DNA of 58,660 nucleotides from a virus, in the IMG/VR virus record IMGVR_UViG_3300029327_000042, positions 1-58,660 of that record. One strand, 5' to 3'. Shown here in pieces: positions 40,489-57,079 of this stretch. The stretch's first letter is position 1. Each line of letters opens with the position of its first letter. Below the pieces are notes generated by a model, which worked only from the letters and a program-made list of their open reading frames with translations, was not told where the DNA came from and made no database searches. The position numbers were made by a program, and so were the translations under genes.

Positions 40489-40552
40489 TGCGGATGTCGG
40501 TGCAGACCCCGATGATGGGTTGATGTTTGATCTCGGCCTGGTTTGCTCTCTG

Positions 40553-40930
40553 CTAATCTCCCCTGACCTTCCATTTTGGTTCTACGGTTTGCTCAAGGTT
40601 GATTCCGACGACAATTGAGAGGTCCCTAAATTCAAGTGGAACGGCATCGAGTGAAGCTCCGAATGTGATCTCTACATCGGCGGGCAATTTCGTGAGAAAT
40701 TCAAGAAAGCGTTCGGCGGTTGGCCTGCTGTCGATTTCTGAAATTGGTCCGAAAAAATTGCCGTCGATTTCATTAAGCTCAATCTGCAGCAAGTCATCCC
40801 CTCTCATCTTGAACCTATAAAAAACCAGAGGGCGCATTCTGTATTTGGATGAGCCGAACGTAATTTCCGTATCTGGAGGGACCTTGCTAAGGAAGTTGCA
40901 CAATTTTCCGACTGTCAGTGATTCGCTCAT
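40553..40930 (-). CDS. Protein with internal domain duplication
   Basis: The 125-residue protein contains two copies of a 50-60-residue unit: VGKLCNFLSKVPPDTEITFG and AERFLEFLTKLPADVEITFG, each followed by a short beta stretch. Its start ATG directly follows a TAG that ends a repressor-derived segment (GGGGAGATTAG ATG AGC), whose GGGGAG acts as ribosome binding site. No family is recognised. It is an accessory gene between phage end and repressor. Confidence 0.55.
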   Translation of the reverse strand: MSESLTVGKLCNFLSKVPPDTEITFGSSKYRMRPLVFYRFKMRGDDLLQIELNEIDGNFFGPISEIDSRPTAERFLEFLTKLPADVEITFGASLDAVPLEFRDLSIVVGINLEQTVEPKWKVRGD

Positions 40931-40993
40931 CTAATCTCCCCGAACCTTTATCAGAACAAGAAATCTCTTCCTGAAGGGGTCCTTGCCAACCAT
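40931..40993 (-). pseudogene. Duplicated fragment of the repressor gene
   Basis: The minus strand reads MVGKDPFRKRFLVLIKVRGD and then stop, matching MVGKDEFRKKFLVLIKVRGD of the repressor (41,327-42,148), and the DNA is about 85 percent identical over some 65 bases. The repressor continues with S-M-S; here TCG is TAG, and the following ATG AGC starts the 40,930 gene. Confidence 0.8.
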
Positions 40994-41021: not shown

Positions 41022-41315
41022 TCAAGAAGTCTGGTAAACTGGAAGACCGATCCATCCATCAGGATGGGATACCGTTCGGTAGATCTTCCCATCTGCACGT
41101 AATTCGTAATCTGGGAGCCCGCACCAGCCCATCGGATGGGAGACGGTTCGATAGATTTTACCGTTTGGACGCAATTCGTAATCAGGAAGACCATTCCATC
41201 CATCGGGATGCGAAACGGTGCGGTAGATCTTGCCGTCATCGCGTAATTCGTAATCGGGTAATCCGCTCCAGCCGCTTGGATGGCTTACAGTTCGATTGAT
41301 TTTTTTTATTGTCAT
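41022..41315 (-). CDS. Tandem-repeat protein (four IYRTVSHP units)
   Basis: ATG at 41315 with AAGGAAGGA immediately upstream. The 97-residue protein is made almost entirely of four 23-residue repeats of the type GLPDYELRxDGKIYRTVSHP-x-GW, encoded by 69-base tandem units. The alternating hydrophobic/aromatic pattern suggests stacked beta hairpins. It ends in QTS shortly after the last unit. Only a structural or binding role can be proposed. Confidence 0.65.
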   Translation of the reverse strand: MTIKKINRTVSHPSGWSGLPDYELRDDGKIYRTVSHPDGWNGLPDYELRPNGKIYRTVSHPMGWCGLPDYELRADGKIYRTVSHPDGWIGLPVYQTS

Positions 41316-41326
41316 TCCTTCCTTTT

Positions 41327-42148
41327 CTAGTCGAATTCCTTCCCTGCCCAGCGGACTCGGCCGAGGATATATTGCTTAAGGGATCGGCCGGGCACCAAGT
41401 CAAATTCGAAGGGTCTGTAAACGGCAACATTGTCACTCATGCAGATAAGAGTCATCCGGCCGTCCTCCTTGCGGCTCAGCGCCAGGCGCTTAATCGCGGA
41501 GCTTCCGTCCGGCATTATTATCATGTAGATTGAGCCGGTGCGAACGTCTAACCGCTCCCCCTCGTAAGTGTCCACCATTACAACTTCACCTGGATTGATC
41601 GTGGGGCTCATCGAATCTCCCCGAACCTTTATCAGGACAAGAAATTTCTTCCTGAACTCATCTTTCCCAACCATCCGCTCGATCCACCATTTCTTGAACG
41701 GATATTGATCGGCGACCTCATCAAAGATGATTTCTCCTTCAGGTCCAGCGGCAACTCTCGATTCGAGTAGAGGTAAAAGCTCAAAATCCTCAGGCGATAA
41801 GCAGTTATAGGGCGCCTGCTGCTCGCTCAACTCCTCGCCCCGCCGCATTGGCCCCTCGCCGGAAAGCAGCCAGTCAGAAGAAATCCCATGCTTCTCGAAC
41901 GCTTCAACAATCCATTGAGCAGGAAGACGTTGTCTTTTTCTCGCAGATCCAAACGATCCGAGGGTCAGGTTTAAAATTTTCATCAGTTCTGTTGGATTTT
42001 TAGCACCGAGAGCACTGATAAGCCTCTCCAGTTTTGACTCGAATAGCGGATCAGGCTGGTTCGCTTGCTCTTCAGGATCAACCGAACCACCAAGCGAACT
42101 AGTTGGCTTGGTGGATTTGTGATCTATGCCGTTGTTTATATTAGACAT
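41327..42148 (-). CDS. Phage repressor, helix-turn-helix plus S24 peptidase
   Basis: From the ATG at 42148 (MSNINNGIDH) the protein has 273 residues. The N-terminal domain resembles CI-type repressors (PTELMKILNLTLGSFGSARK, then GISSDWLLSGEGPM). The C-terminal LexA/S24 domain has the Ala-Gly cleavage site (VAAGPEG, near 132), the nucleophile Ser in GDSMSPT (near 177) and the general-base Lys in SAIKRL (near 216). It should hold lysogeny and be inactivated through RecA-stimulated self-cleavage. Divergent from the early operon across a 122-base operator region. Confidence 0.85.
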   Translation of the reverse strand: MSNINNGIDHKSTKPTSSLGGSVDPEEQANQPDPLFESKLERLISALGAKNPTELMKILNLTLGSFGSARKRQRLPAQWIVEAFEKHGISSDWLLSGEGPMRRGEELSEQQAPYNCLSPEDFELLPLLESRVAAGPEGEIIFDEVADQYPFKKWWIERMVGKDEFRKKFLVLIKVRGDSMSPTINPGEVVMVDTYEGERLDVRTGSIYMIIMPDGSSAIKRLALSRKEDGRMTLICMSDNVAVYRPFEFDLVPGRSLKQYILGRVRWAGKEFD

Positions 42149-42717: not shown

Positions 42718-42905
42718 GACCCGAATGGCAGCTTAAAGGCATCAAAAAGTGGTTGATCGATTTGAACATGACGCAAGATCAGATCGCAAAGGCCGCAGGT
42801 GTGAGCCGCCCCCTGGTTAGCCTCACCATTTCAGGCCGAAGGAAGAATAAACAAGTGATTGACTTCCTTTTATCTAAAGGGTGCCCGAGGAACTTGCTCG
42901 ATTGA
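42714..42905 (+). CDS. Ner-like helix-turn-helix protein
   Basis: A 63-residue protein of one helix-turn-helix domain (IKKWLIDLNMTQDQIAKAAGVSRPLVSLTISG). Mu-like phages encode Ner at this place, which turns down early transcription and repressor synthesis. It is coupled to the upstream gene by an ATGA overlap. Confidence 0.75.
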   Translation: MRPEWQLKGIKKWLIDLNMTQDQIAKAAGVSRPLVSLTISGRRKNKQVIDFLLSKGCPRNLLD

Positions 42906-42931
42906 TCTTTAGCGGCGGAGGCCGAAATCAG

Positions 42932-45214
42932 ATGAACGACCGGGTAACAGTAAAGGATCTAGCGGCGTCGCTCGGGATAACCGAACGGGCGGTGCAGAAA
43001 AAAGCGAAGGAGAAGAACTGGCCGGCGCAGGATTCCACAAATCCAAAGGGCGGTCGGCCGATCAAAACTTTCCCGCTTTCAATCCTTTCCAGGGAAGACC
43101 AGGAAAAGGTAGCTAAGCATCGCCTGGAGGAGCGGCTCCGAAATCCCATGTACCTGGTCGACAAAAATGCCCAGTCCTCCGCAAGCAAAAACGCCGGTTT
43201 GTCAATTCCAAATGCCGGTTTGTCAAATCCGCCCACCGTTCCCGGACAGATGACATCCGGTACAGGTTTAACAAACTCAAACAAACAGGCCGCCCCTCCG
43301 GCTCGGTCCGACCAGGTTGGGCTTGCAAAGTTCAACCTGGTCACCGCCTGGAGAAACCTCCTTGAGTCGCAGCCTCACGGCAAAAAGATCGAGGCGACCC
43401 AGGCGTTTTTGCTTGCGTACAACTCGGGGCGGCTGCTTCCCGGACCCTTCGCCCTGGTCGGGCCAATGGCATCGGGCACACTCCGCGATCTTGACAAAAA
43501 ACTCCGGGCGTCTCGCGATCAAAATAACGGCGTCGAGGACTACCACGCGATATGCGACGGTCGCGGCGGGTGGCGAAAGCACGGGACCACCTTGTGGAGG
43601 CAGAGATCGCTTTCGAATGAGGCCAAAGATGTCTTCTTGTCATGCTGGCTTCGGCCCGAACAACCCACGGTCGCGCTCGCGATCCGCGCCGCCAGGATGA
43701 TGCTGGAGAAGCGCGGAACGCCGGAACCATCCGACGACCGCACCTGGCGAAGATGGCTCGAAGACTGGTCCAAAAGATCTCAGCATATAATAGTGCTCGC
43801 ACGCGAGGGCGAAAAAGCCTACCGAGACAAGGTCGGCCCCTATATCACACGCGACGACTCGATGCTTGAGCCCGGCCAGGTGCTCATTGCAGACGGCCAC
43901 GATCTAAACTTCCAGATCCTGCACCCCCAAACCGGGAAGCCCTCGCGCCTCAAGCTGGTGATGTTTTTCGACTGGGCATCGCGCATGCCGGTCGGCTGGC
44001 AGATCATGCCCACCGAGAACTCGGTCGTCATCCACGCGGCCCTTCGCAACGCGATCATAGCCCTGGGCAAGGTGCCGGATGTCGTCTATCTCGATAACGG
44101 CAAGGCATTCAAGGCCAAGGTTTTTACCGATTCGAGCCCGGATCTTACCGAATTTACCGGCATCTACGCCCGCCTCGGGATCGCCACGCAGTTCGCGCAG
44201 CCCTACAACGCCCGCGCAAAGATTATCGAGCGGTTTTTCCAGACGCTAAACGAGCAGTTCGAGCGGCTGATGTCTAGCTACACCGGGGCATCGATTGCCG
44301 ATAAGCCGGCCTGGACCTCCCGAAACGAAAAATTCCACAAGGCCATGCACGCCAAACGCACGGGCGGCTGGGTCCCCGACATCCGGGAAGCCGCCTGGCT
44401 CGTATCGCTCTACATCCAGTGGTACTCGCAGCAGGAACACTCCGGGATCAACTTCCAAAAACCGGCCGACCTGCTCGCCGCCGGCAGGGGTCCCGGAGTG
44501 GACGTCGCCGACCTCAACTACAGGATGCTTTGGGAAAAGACTGCTGTTCCGCACCGCTGCCGGGTGACCCTCTTTGGAATCGACTACGAATCGGACTGCC
44601 TGCACGGCTACGCGGACAAGGTTGTGGTCAAGTACGACTGCTCCGACCTCGCAAAAATCTGGTTCTACACGGCTGACCGCGAGTACCTCGGCGAGGGCCT
44701 CCCCGTCCAGGCGCTAAACCCAATCGCCCGCCAGCTCGGAGACCAGGTGGGAGTCGACCAGGTCAAATCGGCTATTGCTCGCCAGCGCAGCCTGGCCAAG
44801 CAGACAAAAGCCGGCCTGCTGGAACTCGGGGCTTCGAATGAAACAGCCGAAGGACTTTCGGCCCTGCCCTGGCGGCAAAAAGCTGCGGTGCTTCCAGGAG
44901 GGAAATCAGAATCAGCGCAACCCAAGCTCGAAGCGCCCATGCCCGAAGAGGAGAAGGCACGTCTTGAGCTGGTTGCCAGCCGGGCCGAGGCCGAGATCCG
45001 CAGGGAAGAAGAGTCAAGGCCCGAACTGGAGCGCCCCGAGCAATTCCGCAGCCCGGCAGAGAGGTTCGAGTGGTGCTGGAGGGCTCAACACCAGCACAAA
45101 GCCGAGCTGACCCACGAAGAGCAGGCGTTTATGGCCTGGTACCAGACTACTGAAGAATTCCAGACGGTCTGTCGGCAGCGGATTGAAGACCTTGAGATGA
45201 TTTACTGCCAATAA
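42932..45214 (+). CDS. MuA-type DDE transposase
   Basis: From the ATG at 42932 the protein has 760 residues; a GTG at 42881 is an alternative. An N-terminal winged DNA-binding domain (VTVKDLAASLGITERAVQKK) is followed by end-binding domains, then the catalytic core with D in IADGHD (near 320), D in YLDNGK (near 386) and E in KIIERFFQTL (near 431). The C-terminal basic region and the MuB-interaction tail follow. It should catalyse transposition of the prophage with target choice by the MuB-type ATPase downstream. Confidence 0.9.
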   Translation: MNDRVTVKDLAASLGITERAVQKKAKEKNWPAQDSTNPKGGRPIKTFPLSILSREDQEKVAKHRLEERLRNPMYLVDKNAQSSASKNAGLSIPNAGLSNPPTVPGQMTSGTGLTNSNKQAAPPARSDQVGLAKFNLVTAWRNLLESQPHGKKIEATQAFLLAYNSGRLLPGPFALVGPMASGTLRDLDKKLRASRDQNNGVEDYHAICDGRGGWRKHGTTLWRQRSLSNEAKDVFLSCWLRPEQPTVALAIRAARMMLEKRGTPEPSDDRTWRRWLEDWSKRSQHIIVLAREGEKAYRDKVGPYITRDDSMLEPGQVLIADGHDLNFQILHPQTGKPSRLKLVMFFDWASRMPVGWQIMPTENSVVIHAALRNAIIALGKVPDVVYLDNGKAFKAKVFTDSSPDLTEFTGIYARLGIATQFAQPYNARAKIIERFFQTLNEQFERLMSSYTGASIADKPAWTSRNEKFHKAMHAKRTGGWVPDIREAAWLVSLYIQWYSQQEHSGINFQKPADLLAAGRGPGVDVADLNYRMLWEKTAVPHRCRVTLFGIDYESDCLHGYADKVVVKYDCSDLAKIWFYTADREYLGEGLPVQALNPIARQLGDQVGVDQVKSAIARQRSLAKQTKAGLLELGASNETAEGLSALPWRQKAAVLPGGKSESAQPKLEAPMPEEEKARLELVASRAEAEIRREEESRPELERPEQFRSPAERFEWCWRAQHQHKAELTHEEQAFMAWYQTTEEFQTVCRQRIEDLEMIYCQ

Positions 45215-52714: not shown

Positions 52715-53226
52715 ACCACCGCGAGTTGCTGCTCAGTGCCTCAAAAAAGGCGAGGTTCGCATTCCTGTCCCTGCCCGAGGGTCTCCAGGATGAAATAATC
52801 GCAGGTCTGGACGGGCAGACCCTTACCCTGCAATCAGCATCCGCGCTGGTCAAAGAGCGCGGTCATAGCCTGAGCCATGAAGGCATCGCGGGCTATTACC
52901 GGGCGCTTCGAACGGAGAGGCGGCTCCTGGGAGTGCGCGAGGAGATGTCGCGCATTATCGCCGAATACGCCAAGAAGCCACACAAAGAGGCACTGGAAAG
53001 TCTGGTCAACCTGGCCATCGCAACAGCGGCGACCGGTTTGGTTGATGGTTCGACGAAAATGAAAATCGACCTGGCGGCCCTGGTCAAGGCGCTGCCGCAG
53101 GATCAGCCTGCTCCCGTACAGCCGGAGCCACAGGCCGGTGAACAGAAGCAATCGCCCGAGTCTGGACCCGGACTCAGCGAACAGGCGGCCGAAGAGATCC
53201 GCAAAAAGGTGCTTGGAATAAGATGA
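52711..53226 (+). CDS. DUF3486 family protein (Mu gp27-like, small terminase candidate)
   Basis: A 171-residue protein with helix-turn-helix at about 10-60 (LPEGLQDEIIAGLDGQTLTL is part of it), GIAGYYRAL, and a Pro/Gln-rich linker before a helical end. DUF3486 proteins stand directly before the large terminase gene of Mu-like phages and probably act in DNA packaging. Confidence 0.75.
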   Translation: MNHRELLLSASKKARFAFLSLPEGLQDEIIAGLDGQTLTLQSASALVKERGHSLSHEGIAGYYRALRTERRLLGVREEMSRIIAEYAKKPHKEALESLVNLAIATAATGLVDGSTKMKIDLAALVKALPQDQPAPVQPEPQAGEQKQSPESGPGLSEQAAEEIRKKVLGIR

Positions 53227-54686
53227 GCGAAATTCCCGACCTCCTCATGCCCTACCAGAAGGCCTGGATCGCCGATAAGGCCCCGGTCAAACTGTGCGAG
53301 AAATCGCGCCGCGTCGGGCTTTCCTGGTGCGAAGCGGCGGACGATGTGCTCGAAGCGGCAAGCACCGGCGGCATGGATGTCTGGTATATCGGCTACAACA
53401 AGGAGATGGCCCTCGAATTCATTAATGATTGCGCCTTCTGGGTCGGCGTCTACGGCGAAGCGGCATCGGCGATGGAAGAAGTCCTGGTCGAGGACGAGGA
53501 CCATGACATCATCGCCTTCAGGATAACTTTTTCAAGCGGCAAGCGTGTGACCGCGCTTTCCTCCAGGCCCTCGAACCTTCGAGGCAAGCAGGGCAAGGTA
53601 GTGATCGATGAGGCCGCTTTCCACAACGACCTTCCAGGGCTGCTCAAGGCCGCAATCGCCCTTCTTATGTGGGGCGGGCGTGTCGTGGTTATCTCCACCC
53701 ACTTCGGCGAGGACAATCCATTCAACGATCTGATCGGAGAGATCCGCGCCGGCAAGAAGCCCTACTCCTTACACAGGATTACGCTCGATGACGCCCTGGC
53801 GCAGGGCCTCTATCGCCGAATCTGCCTCAAAACAAACCAGGAATGGACAGCAGAGGGCGAAGCGGCCTGGCGCCAGGATCTCATAAATTCCTACGGCGAT
53901 GATTCCGATGAGGAACTTTTCTGCATCCCGAGCAAGGGGTCCGGCATCTACCTGCCTCGAAATATTATCGAAGCCTGCATGGATGCCCAAATACCGGTGG
54001 TCCGCTGGAAATGCACGCCGGAATTCGCGGAGCAGCCCGAGGATGCGCGCACCGCCGCCGCCCTTGCCTGGTGCGTCCTATACCTCGATCCGGTCCTGGA
54101 CGTCCTGCCCGAGAACTGGCCAACCTACTTCGGCGAGGATTTCGGCCGCACCGGTGACCTGACGGTGATTGTCCCCCTCCAGGAGCAGCCGTTTCTCACC
54201 TACCGCGATATCTGCCAGATCGAACTTCGAAACGTTCCCTTCAGGCAGCAAGAACAGGTCCTCTTCTATCTTCTCGACCGTCTGCCCAGATTTCGCGGAG
54301 GCGCAATGGACGCGCGCGGAAACGGCCAGTATCTAGCCGAAGTCGCCATGCAGCGCTACGGCTCCTCGCGGATCGCCCAGGTAATGCTCTCCGAGACCTG
54401 GTACCGCGAGAATATGCCCCCGCTCAAAAGCGCCCTTGAAGACCGAAAGATGGCCATTCCGAAAGATGCGGACACCCTGGACGACCTTCGAGCGGTCAAG
54501 ATGGAAAAGGGCGTGGCAAAGGTCCCGGATACCTACAAGGGAAAAGGTCGCGACGGCGGGCAACGCCACGGAGATTCCGCAATAGCTCACGCCCTGGCTT
54601 GGTCGGCAACAAAGATGGCCGGCGGGCCTCCTGAATATGAATCAGTCGGCGAGCGCCGCTTTGCGAATCACAGAGGAGCTTACTAA
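53223..54686 (+). CDS. Mu-like large terminase subunit (gp28 type)
   Basis: A protein of 487 residues. The ATPase half has KSRRVGLSWCEA near 29 (Walker A variant), LSSRPSNLRGKQGKVVIDEAAFH shown here in two blocks as ALSSRPSNLRG and VVIDEAAFH (Walker B near 127) and a VVISTHFG coupling motif. The nuclease half begins at FGEDFGRTGD (near 305) with an RNase H-like pattern. It packages DNA into proheads by the headful mode of Mu. Confidence 0.9.
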   Translation: MSEIPDLLMPYQKAWIADKAPVKLCEKSRRVGLSWCEAADDVLEAASTGGMDVWYIGYNKEMALEFINDCAFWVGVYGEAASAMEEVLVEDEDHDIIAFRITFSSGKRVTALSSRPSNLRGKQGKVVIDEAAFHNDLPGLLKAAIALLMWGGRVVVISTHFGEDNPFNDLIGEIRAGKKPYSLHRITLDDALAQGLYRRICLKTNQEWTAEGEAAWRQDLINSYGDDSDEELFCIPSKGSGIYLPRNIIEACMDAQIPVVRWKCTPEFAEQPEDARTAAALAWCVLYLDPVLDVLPENWPTYFGEDFGRTGDLTVIVPLQEQPFLTYRDICQIELRNVPFRQQEQVLFYLLDRLPRFRGGAMDARGNGQYLAEVAMQRYGSSRIAQVMLSETWYRENMPPLKSALEDRKMAIPKDADTLDDLRAVKMEKGVAKVPDTYKGKGRDGGQRHGDSAIAHALAWSATKMAGGPPEYESVGERRFANHRGAY

Positions 54687-54689
54687 AAA

Positions 54690-56342
54690 ATGCTGCTCGA
54701 TCAGTTCGGCCGAGAGATCCAGATGGGGGATATCAGGACCCCGGAAACCCGCGAAATATCGGTCCAGCTCCTGCGCGACCGCTACAGCACTTATCCCAGC
54801 TCCGGCCTCACGCCCGACCGGCTGGCAACGATCCTCAAGGCCGCCGACCAGGGAGACGTACTCCGCCAGGCGGAACTGTTCGAAGAAATGGAAGAAAAGG
54901 ACGCCCACCTGGCGTCGCAGTTCCAGACCCGCAAATTGGCCGTGCAAGGTCTTTCGTGGGAGATATCGCCGACATCCGAAGATTCCGCCGACAAGAAAAT
55001 TGCGGAATTTTGCAATATGGTTCTCGAAGGCCTGGCCGACCTCGACGATCACATCCTCGATATGCTCGACGCCCTTGGCAAAGGCTACTCGATGATGGAA
55101 ATCATGTGGGATACCTCTTCAGGCCAGGCGAACGTCACCGGGCTCAACTGGATACACGCCAAGAAGCTCACCTTCTGGAACTCCATACACCCCAGGGTGC
55201 TAACCGAAGAAGACCAGGTACAGGGCATCGATCCGCCCCCATTCAAGTTCGTCTACCACCGCTACAAGGCCCGGTCAGGCTATGACACAAGGGCCGGGAT
55301 CATGCGCGTTTGCGCCTTCATGTACCTTTTCAAAAATTATGCAATTAAAGACTGGGTATCGTTTGCTGAAGTATATGGCATGCCGATCCGGGTTGGAAAG
55401 TTCGAGCCGGGTGCATCGAAAGCGGACAAAGACGCCCTGATAAATGCAATCCGCTCGCTCGGAGCCGATGCCGCCGGCATCATATCCAAATCCACCGAAA
55501 TCGAATTTATCGAATCGACCAAGACCAGCTCGCTAAACGTCTACGAAAGCCTGGTAACTTTTTGCGATGCGCAAATGTCAAAGGCCATCCTCGGCCAGAC
55601 GCTCACATCGGAAGCCGGCGGCAGCAAGGGCCAGGGCAGCTTCGCTCTCGGCCAGGTGCATAACGACGTCAGGCAGGACCTGATAGAGGCAGACTGCCGC
55701 GCACTCGGTAAAACCATCACCCAGCAGATCCTCCGTCCCCTGGTCGGCTTTAATTTCGGCTGGGACGCGCCGATACCGCAGTTCCGGTTTCTCTACGAGC
55801 CTCCGGAAGACCTCAAGGCCGCCGCCGATGTGTACAAGATCGTGAGCGACATGGGGCAGCCGATCAGCCAGGAACATATCAGCGAGCGATTTAAGATACC
55901 TCTTCCGAAAGATGGCGAGACGCCCTTAAAGAAGCCGACCCCGCCTCCGCAACCGTTCGGAGGCATGCCGCCCGGATCGCTGCCGGGAATGCAGCCCGAA
56001 AAAAAGCCTCCTGAAGGACCGCCCGAAAACAATCCGCCCGAGGATGAGCCGCCCCCGGCAAAGGCGAAGCGTATCGCAAAAAGTGTTAAGGGGGGCGGCG
56101 AACCGTCCGGTCAGAAGGCAATCGACGCCATGCGCCGAAAGGCATTGCCGAAGGCAACCGATGAGATCCAGGCAATGCTCAAGCCGGTCTTGGACATGAT
56201 TAAAAACGCTGAATCTCTCGAAGAGATCGGCGCGAAAATCTACGCCCTCTATCCGCGCCTGGACGGCGAGCGCTTCCAGCAGCTCCTCGCCCGCGCGATC
56301 CTCGCCTCGGCCCTAACCGGCGGCGCAAGCGAGGGTGAATGA
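54690..56342 (+). CDS. DUF935 portal protein (Mu gp29-like)
   Basis: The 550-residue protein matches DUF935: an N-terminal REIQMGDIRTP segment, DAHLASQFQTRKLAV, then GKGYSMMEIMWD and FVYHRYKA, and FGWDAPIPQFRF. A Pro-rich linker (about 415-455) precedes a C-terminal helical part. It forms the dodecameric portal ring. Overlaps the next gene by four bases. Confidence 0.9.
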   Translation: MLLDQFGREIQMGDIRTPETREISVQLLRDRYSTYPSSGLTPDRLATILKAADQGDVLRQAELFEEMEEKDAHLASQFQTRKLAVQGLSWEISPTSEDSADKKIAEFCNMVLEGLADLDDHILDMLDALGKGYSMMEIMWDTSSGQANVTGLNWIHAKKLTFWNSIHPRVLTEEDQVQGIDPPPFKFVYHRYKARSGYDTRAGIMRVCAFMYLFKNYAIKDWVSFAEVYGMPIRVGKFEPGASKADKDALINAIRSLGADAAGIISKSTEIEFIESTKTSSLNVYESLVTFCDAQMSKAILGQTLTSEAGGSKGQGSFALGQVHNDVRQDLIEADCRALGKTITQQILRPLVGFNFGWDAPIPQFRFLYEPPEDLKAAADVYKIVSDMGQPISQEHISERFKIPLPKDGETPLKKPTPPPQPFGGMPPGSLPGMQPEKKPPEGPPENNPPEDEPPPAKAKRIAKSVKGGGEPSGQKAIDAMRRKALPKATDEIQAMLKPVLDMIKNAESLEEIGAKIYALYPRLDGERFQQLLARAILASALTGGASEGE

Positions 56343-57079
56343 AAATCGACGCCGTTCCCTTCGATCTCGACTTCGAGGAGGCCATAGCCTGGTTTCGGAG
56401 CAAAGGCTATGCGATTACGGCAACCTCCTGGAGGGAACTCTGGAAGCAGGCGAACGCTCGCGCTTTTACGGTGGCTCGCGTTACCGAAATGGACGTGCTG
56501 GTCGACATCAAAAACGAAGTCGACAAAGCAATCCGCAACGGCACAACGCTCAAGGAATTTAAAGACAACCTCATCCCGAAGCTCGAAGAAAAGGGATGGT
56601 GGGCCCCGACCGGTGAAAAGGCAATCGTGCAGCTCCCGGACGGGACCGAAATGAAGCGTCTCGCGCCCTGGCGGCTTGAGACCATTTTTAACACCAACAT
56701 TCAGACCGCCTACTCGGTCGGCCGGTTTCAGCAACAGATGGAAGTCGCGCAGGATCGCCCCTACTGGCAATACAAGGCGATCATCGATTCGGTCACCCGG
56801 CCCGATCACGCCGAGATGGACGACAGGGTTTATCACTACCTGCACCCGATCTGGAACGAATGGTATCCGCCCAACGGCTTTGGCTGAAGGTGCTACATCG
56901 TGACGCTCTCGGTCGAGGACGTAGGAGAACGCGGACTGGAAGAGGAAACAACCGGGGTATCGGCAAAACCCGATGAAGGCTGGGACTATAACGTCGGAAG
57001 AGAAGGCCTCAATTCCTACAAGCCGGACCTCTCTAAATACCCCGAGGACTTGGCCAGGCAGTACAAGGAGCCGGAATGA
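56339..57079 (+). CDS. Mu F-like head protein (gp30) with in-frame TGA at a conserved Cys
   Basis: Read without interruption, the frame gives 246 codons from ATG at 56339 to the stop at 57077, which overlaps the next ATG by four bases like its neighbours. Codon 183 (56,885-56,887) is TGA. In front stands DDRVYHYLHPIWNEWYPPNG (last residues of a typical Mu F-like module), behind it RCYIVTLSVEDV, so TGA occupies the first Cys of the family's CRC motif. Conventional annotation ends at 56,887 with 182 residues. A hairpin with GGTC loop lies 24 bases downstream. Nonsense mutation or selenocysteine are the two readings. Confidence 0.7.
56893..56924 (+). promoter_or_regulatory. Candidate bacterial SECIS-like hairpin
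   Basis: CTAC (56,893-56,896) can pair with GTAG (56,921-56,924), and CTC-GGTC-GAG (56,908-56,917) forms the top. Loop GGTC and distance from the TGA (23 bases between) fall within the known range of bacterial selenocysteine elements, but the middle is poorly paired. Confidence 0.25.

Follow-up and report, generated by a model that had tools for sequence, protein, structure and literature searches.

An in-frame TGA at a conserved cysteine codon of a Mu F-like head protein gene: evidence for a probable selenoprotein family in Mu-like phages

To our knowledge, the known prokaryotic selenoproteins are cellular proteins and mostly redox enzymes. In bacterial selenoproteins such as FdhF of E. coli, an in-frame UGA stands at the position of a cysteine (Cys) and is followed, within the coding sequence, by a hairpin, the bacterial selenocysteine insertion sequence (bSECIS). 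The gene described here is alike in both respects, whereas its product would be a phage virion protein. It is the Mu F-like minor head protein gene at positions 56339-57079 (plus strand, as for all features below unless stated otherwise) of the IMG/VR virus record IMGVR_UViG_3300029327_000042, which was analysed over its whole length of 58,660 bases (hereafter the window). Comparison with related genes leads us to propose, with a probability of about 0.86, that it encodes a selenoprotein in a Mu-like phage, with host-decoded selenocysteine (Sec) at the first Cys of a C-x-C motif.

Selenoproteins of eukaryotic viruses have been described, namely the poxvirus glutathione peroxidases (PMC8310308). 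These resemble the present case in that a virus gene is decoded by the Sec machinery of the host, but they are captured host enzymes with a eukaryotic SECIS, whereas here a core phage head gene would have undergone a Cys/Sec change within a phage family. Huge phages have been reported to carry tRNA-Sec genes, and Sec proteins were inferred there as possible, with none named (PMC10747093). No phage selenoprotein was found among 5.39 million open-access papers (subscription papers, preprints and supplements lay outside the search, and priority is unproven), and phages are not mentioned in two reviews of prokaryotic selenoproteins or in a study of Sec-rich Deltaproteobacteria.

The window gene shares with the Mu F and SPP1 gp7 proteins (PF04233, TIGR01641, phrog_220) its domain, its place between portal and protease genes and a C-x-C motif after PPNG, and differs from them in that the codon of the first Cys is TGA; a Sec-containing member is described in none of the Pfam, PHROGs and NCBIfam entries returned. 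The frame comprises 246 codons plus a stop, and its sole internal stop is the TGA of codon 183 (56885-56887), the proposed Sec codon, as an earlier sequence-only reading of the window had stated. Translated through this TGA, the frame scored 72.4 bits against PF04233 (cut-off 29.6), which places it in the F family, and 268 bits against phrog_220 ("minor head protein and DNA pilot"), and it shared 38% identity with phage Mu F across residues 13-244. The TGA is assigned to the first conserved Cys because phage Mu F has PPNGWNCRC where the window gene has PPNGFG-TGA-R-C; both profiles and Mu F itself thus bear out the earlier claim that a stop-R-C stands at the Cys motif of a Mu F-like protein. 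The second Cys of the motif is the TGC of codon 185 (56891-56893), which is TGA in the relatives termed CxU and UxU below (U denoting TGA; UxC genes, like that of the window, have it at the first Cys). Therefore, in the window gene the first of two conserved Cys is replaced by TGA.

The F start overlaps the stop of a Mu-type portal protein gene (gp29-like, PF06074; 54690-56342) in an ATGA at 56339-56342, and the F end overlaps the start of a Mu I-like head maturation protease gene (PF10123; 57076-58182) in an ATGA at 57076-57079, the overlap that had already been pointed out, so that the F-like gene lies between a Mu-type portal gene and a Mu I-like protease gene. The 63 open codons after the TGA are unsurprising by themselves, because the window contains about 50 stops that are flanked in frame by at least 80 open codons on one side and at least 50 on the other. 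The feature not expected by chance is the homology to F, which carries on across the TGA, rather than the open frame.

The sequence-only reading had called for a search of homologues, and this returned TGA at the Cys position in relatives instead of Cys in all of them. The two nearest TGA-bearing relatives, L015 (58% identical; L and G numbers are our labels) and L035 (53%), have TGA at the same codon as the window gene; the nearest Cys-type relative, L200, is as close to the window gene as they are. A DNA pattern scan of IMG/VR for PPNGxx-TGA-x-Cys gave 38 stretches, 32 of which belong to F-like genes whose frame is open before and after the TGA. The same scan for TGA at the second Cys had been planned as a one-step control and came out positive: 14 of 15 stretches are genuine F genes, and the CxU F-like genes are L166-L179 and L265. 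TGA at both Cys was found in nine stretches, four of them genuine (L191, L195, L196 and L197). These second-Cys and double forms go beyond what the sequence-only reading foresaw. Cys at both positions was found in at least 120 stretches, and Cys was present wherever the motif was found in the named phages and plasmids examined among the hits. With Trp before it, TAA or TAG at the first Cys was not found in the IMG/VR scan, a control that is weak by itself in that these codons are two substitutions away from a Cys codon; with TGA in place of the Trp that lies two codons before the site, two stretches were returned, both of them non-coding noise. When 398 genomes from the phylum to which L006 belongs were searched, one pattern match was returned, which was not an F gene. 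A protein encoded in the left flank had no informative match among plasmids, and the flanks of two isolate-derived records pointed to no taxon. The IMG/VR records 2684623112_000002 and 2593339183_000001 (L009 and L030) look, from their numbers, like isolate-derived prophages with a TGA-type F gene.

A sample that had not been selected for the site was obtained by homology to the window gene and its two nearest TGA-bearing relatives. In the resulting 80 loci (17,015 aligned codons), stops were found only at residues 183 (six loci) and 185 (one locus), and all were TGA; the numbers of distinct sequences are smaller, as L204 and L205 duplicate L015 and L035, and L275-L277 all have the same sequence. 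Among 19,117 codons of the Cys-type loci (n = 118) there was a single stop, close to the C terminus. The in-frame UGA aligns with a Cys that is conserved in homologues, several independent homologues share the UGA site, and the coding sequence after the UGA is conserved.

This conservation was evaluated by codon position. TGA-bearing genes were compared in 209 pairs: divergence after the TGA was 0.34, 0.30 and 0.57 at the first, second and third codon positions, compared to 0.30, 0.26 and 0.54 before it. Between the window gene and L015 there were 22, 18 and 43 differences at the three positions in the 60 codons after the TGA, and the pair of the window gene and L035 likewise indicates purifying selection downstream of the TGA. 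Therefore, the downstream part is translated and constrained. In a tree of 147 F cores from which the two motif residues had been masked, parsimony placed 13 changes between Cys and TGA, at least seven of them on well-supported branches. The UxC and CxU genes interleave, and within one clade the TGA is found on either Cys or on the two together. Within the interleaving UxC/CxU clade the same hairpin stays in place, its loop lying 24 or 30 nucleotides (nt) from the first base of the UGA. Such repeated switching between Cys and TGA is what would be expected if Sec and Cys replaced each other.

The published bacterial SECIS model has a loop of 3-9 nt, G within the first two loop positions, a distance of 16-37 nt from the UGA and a minimum free energy of -7.5 or lower (PMC13188914). 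We scored hairpins of nearly this geometry, with a loop of 3-8 nt starting 13-34 nt after the UGA, against synonymous recodings of each sequence, and Cys-type sequences were scored in the same register as TGA-type ones. The mean z was -1.63 for 29 UxC and -1.92 for 8 CxU genes, compared to -0.19 for 116 Cys-type genes (p = 2e-10), and a hairpin of -7 kcal/mol or lower was present in 29 of 37 TGA-type and 21 of 116 Cys-type genes (p = 4e-11); both p-values count related sequences as independent. In the clade with the residues S-A-R-E-V-E, the hairpin CCGCC-CGUGA-GGUGG was paired in all 12 sequences included, a figure conditional on the omission of L010, L036, L042 and L166, in which the hairpin lies elsewhere. 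Two-sided compensatory changes were found at three of its six pairs, and none of 500 shuffles was as good, whereas the Cys-type neighbours of this clade have lost the hairpin. Several U-type genes have a GGUC loop, an example being GUGUCA-GGUC-UGACAC in L022, which like that of L043 is a strong hairpin; we take GGUC to be the loop of the E. coli fdhF element, as the sequence-only reading named it. At the level of the family, then, a hairpin of bSECIS type follows the UGA. A difference from the bacterial selenoproteins is that the UGA may be on either Cys or on both, with one hairpin serving both.

The candidate SECIS hairpin of the window copy (ACG-C-UCUC-GGUC-GAGG-A-CGU, 56903-56922; stem 56903-56910/56915-56922, loop 56911-56914) has its GGUC loop 23 nt after the UGA and fits the geometry of the model. 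The part of the earlier claim that concerned loop and distance was thus upheld, while in stability the hairpin is weak. Several observations weigh against the Sec interpretation at this point. The energy of the window hairpin is -4.8 kcal/mol, which by itself falls short of the -7.5 cut-off, and its z was about 0 against dinucleotide shuffles and -1.0 against synonymous ones. Phylogenetically independent pairs in the family went in the same direction as the full set (3.1 to 0.3) and were too few for significance, and the U-type gene L008 has no hairpin by the scoring criterion. With its flanks, the window region reached up to -9.2 kcal/mol, but in a different fold; the hairpins of the nearest TGA-bearing relatives have energies of -6.0 (L015) and -3.6 kcal/mol (L035). 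The RNA evidence for the window copy alone is neutral to mildly positive. Therefore, the case rests on the family, and by comparison of its members we found that UGA occurs at the two Cys positions only, that codons downstream of it show the pattern of selected sequence and that hairpins go with the UGA.

Upstream of the portal gene are an intact terminase large subunit gene (53223-54686) and an intact gene for a MuA-like transposase (42881-45214), and by the latter the element is taken to be a Mu-like (transposable) prophage. Its left part, from about 41 kb, includes genes for a repressor, the transposase, an ATPase, the terminase, the portal protein, the F-like protein and the I-like protease, where we assigned the repressor as presumably S24-type by eye and the ATPase as presumably MuB-like by position. 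A 69-nt piece of the repressor gene around its VRGDS site is present on the minus strand at 40925-40993 and 41606-41674 (87% identity), with a third, shorter copy at 40548-40570. Tandem 72-bp repeats that adjoin the repressor (41022-41315, minus strand) encode a small repeat protein, GW.GLPDYELR..GKIYRTVSHP. The left 40 kb (1-40000) has a GC content of about 35-54%, compared to about 58% in the prophage, and by eye it holds genes for a resolvase-like protein, two integrase-like proteins and HerA-like ATPases; it is perhaps a mobile island of the host that received the Mu-like phage by transposition.

No selA was found in the window record, itself a virus record. A screen of 28 virus records for selB was likewise negative, and in 47 virus records no tRNA-Sec reached the gathering score. 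One weak match resembling tRNA-Sec (G416; 27.6 bits, gathering score 47) is probably an ordinary tRNA, since ARAGORN reports a tRNA-Met somewhere in that record. A tRNA with anticodon UCA was absent from the U-type loci scanned, where a host-encoded one would not show. Phages without sel genes or tRNA-Sec of their own are expected if the host supplies them, and the natural reading is that the phage relies on the Sec machinery of its host.

The simplest alternative, which the sequence-only reading had also raised, is a fresh nonsense mutation from Cys to stop in a decaying prophage, leaving a truncated F protein. A TGA is one substitution away from a Cys codon, the window hairpin is weak, and L200 shows that a Cys-type gene can be as near to the window gene as the TGA-type ones. 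Decay is not what the surroundings suggest: the frames of the transposase, terminase, portal and protease genes are all intact, and the F-like gene is without stops at any other position. Nor would a fresh mutation account for TGA at the same codon in L015, L035 and dozens of F-like genes of other phages, or for purifying selection after the TGA that includes the pairs of the window gene with L015 and L035. Because of this recurrence and of the selection on downstream codons, a fresh nonsense mutation was rejected as very improbable for the window gene and is strongly disfavoured at the level of the family; of the two options that the sequence-only reading had left open, the comparison favours Sec. 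Programmed partial readthrough by a near-cognate tRNA, or reinitiation, would yield F proteins of two lengths, with the identity of the residue unimportant. Viruses are known to use stop-codon readthrough, a GTG at 56900 lies just past the TGA, and in several relatives the UGA precedes a PBECR2 nuclease domain, for which readthrough would tune the amount of cargo. This explanation leaves unaccounted for that the UGA is found on two Cys codons only, including both at once, that UAA and UAG are absent and that the hairpins have SECIS geometry, and we consider it even less probable.

The restriction of UGA to Cys positions would be accounted for exactly if UGA were read as Cys by a tRNA-Cys with anticodon UCA, the protein being the same as the Cys form, and SelB and the hairpin could still be used: such tRNAs are known from some bacteria and reportedly act with SelB, and PMC8762117 cites descriptions of them (Mukai 2016, Vargas-Rodriguez 2018). 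Decoding of this kind is rare compared to ordinary Sec decoding, and the scan of U-type loci described above gave no UCA tRNA, although one encoded by the host would have escaped it; we give this possibility very little weight, and slightly less than readthrough. A genetic code of the phage or host in which UGA is always sense would explain an in-frame UGA within a conserved gene, but the F-like gene itself and many relatives end with TGA as their normal stop, and TGA within the frame is limited to two codons, which refutes genome-wide reassignment of UGA and leaves this explanation next to no probability. We thus return to Sec insertion: the TGA-bearing F genes of Mu-like phages very probably make up a selenoprotein family, with SelB and tRNA-Sec of the host decoding the UGA. 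That the inserted residue is Sec, and that host factors supply it, is what we infer from these comparisons.

In the mechanism proposed, the SECIS hairpin within the coding sequence just past the UGA would recruit host SelB carrying Sec-tRNA-Sec, and the ribosome would continue past the UGA into the C-terminal part of the F gene and the overlapping protease gene. In the virion, the U-x-C pair may act as a reactive selenol-thiol site or as a metal ligand; the two likeliest, if speculative, roles would be a selenol-thiol pair that is oxidised in the particle and becomes reduced when the phage enters the cell, and a metal site. An AlphaFold model of the F-like protein had a mean predicted local distance difference test (pLDDT) score of 85, and a search of the PDB gave neither a fold match nor a sequence match, so that the geometry of the Cys/Sec site was not informed by it. 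In some temperate phages the MuF domain is joined to polymorphic toxins (PMC5576092), and likewise some U-type relatives have a MuF domain followed by a nuclease: a C-terminal PBECR2 domain lies after the TGA in L023, L032, L041 and L043, and L028 has a weak ART-like match there in place of PBECR2. The window copy differs from these in having a short tail after the motif, without a match to a toxin domain. The PBECR2 domain is presumed to be cargo placed after the Sec codon, and stopping at the UGA in such relatives would lose both motif and cargo.

A broader proposal, which we hold tentatively and think rather less likely than its opposite, is that there is a class of Mu-like phages with a virion head protein, possibly injected, that contains one or two Sec. 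Its C-x-C motif would flip between Cys-Cys, Sec-Cys, Cys-Sec and Sec-Sec, selenium would function in assembly or DNA ejection, either as a redox switch or as part of a metal site, and the phages would thereby be restricted to Sec-decoding hosts. If the Sec reading of the TGA-bearing F genes is correct, they would be the first phage selenoprotein family, as far as could be found, and standard annotation would be cutting such F proteins at their functional motif. The production of these phages would be tied to the selenium metabolism of the host, and, because Sec usually marks a reactive site, the so far unexplained C-x-C motif of the MuF family would be chemically active.
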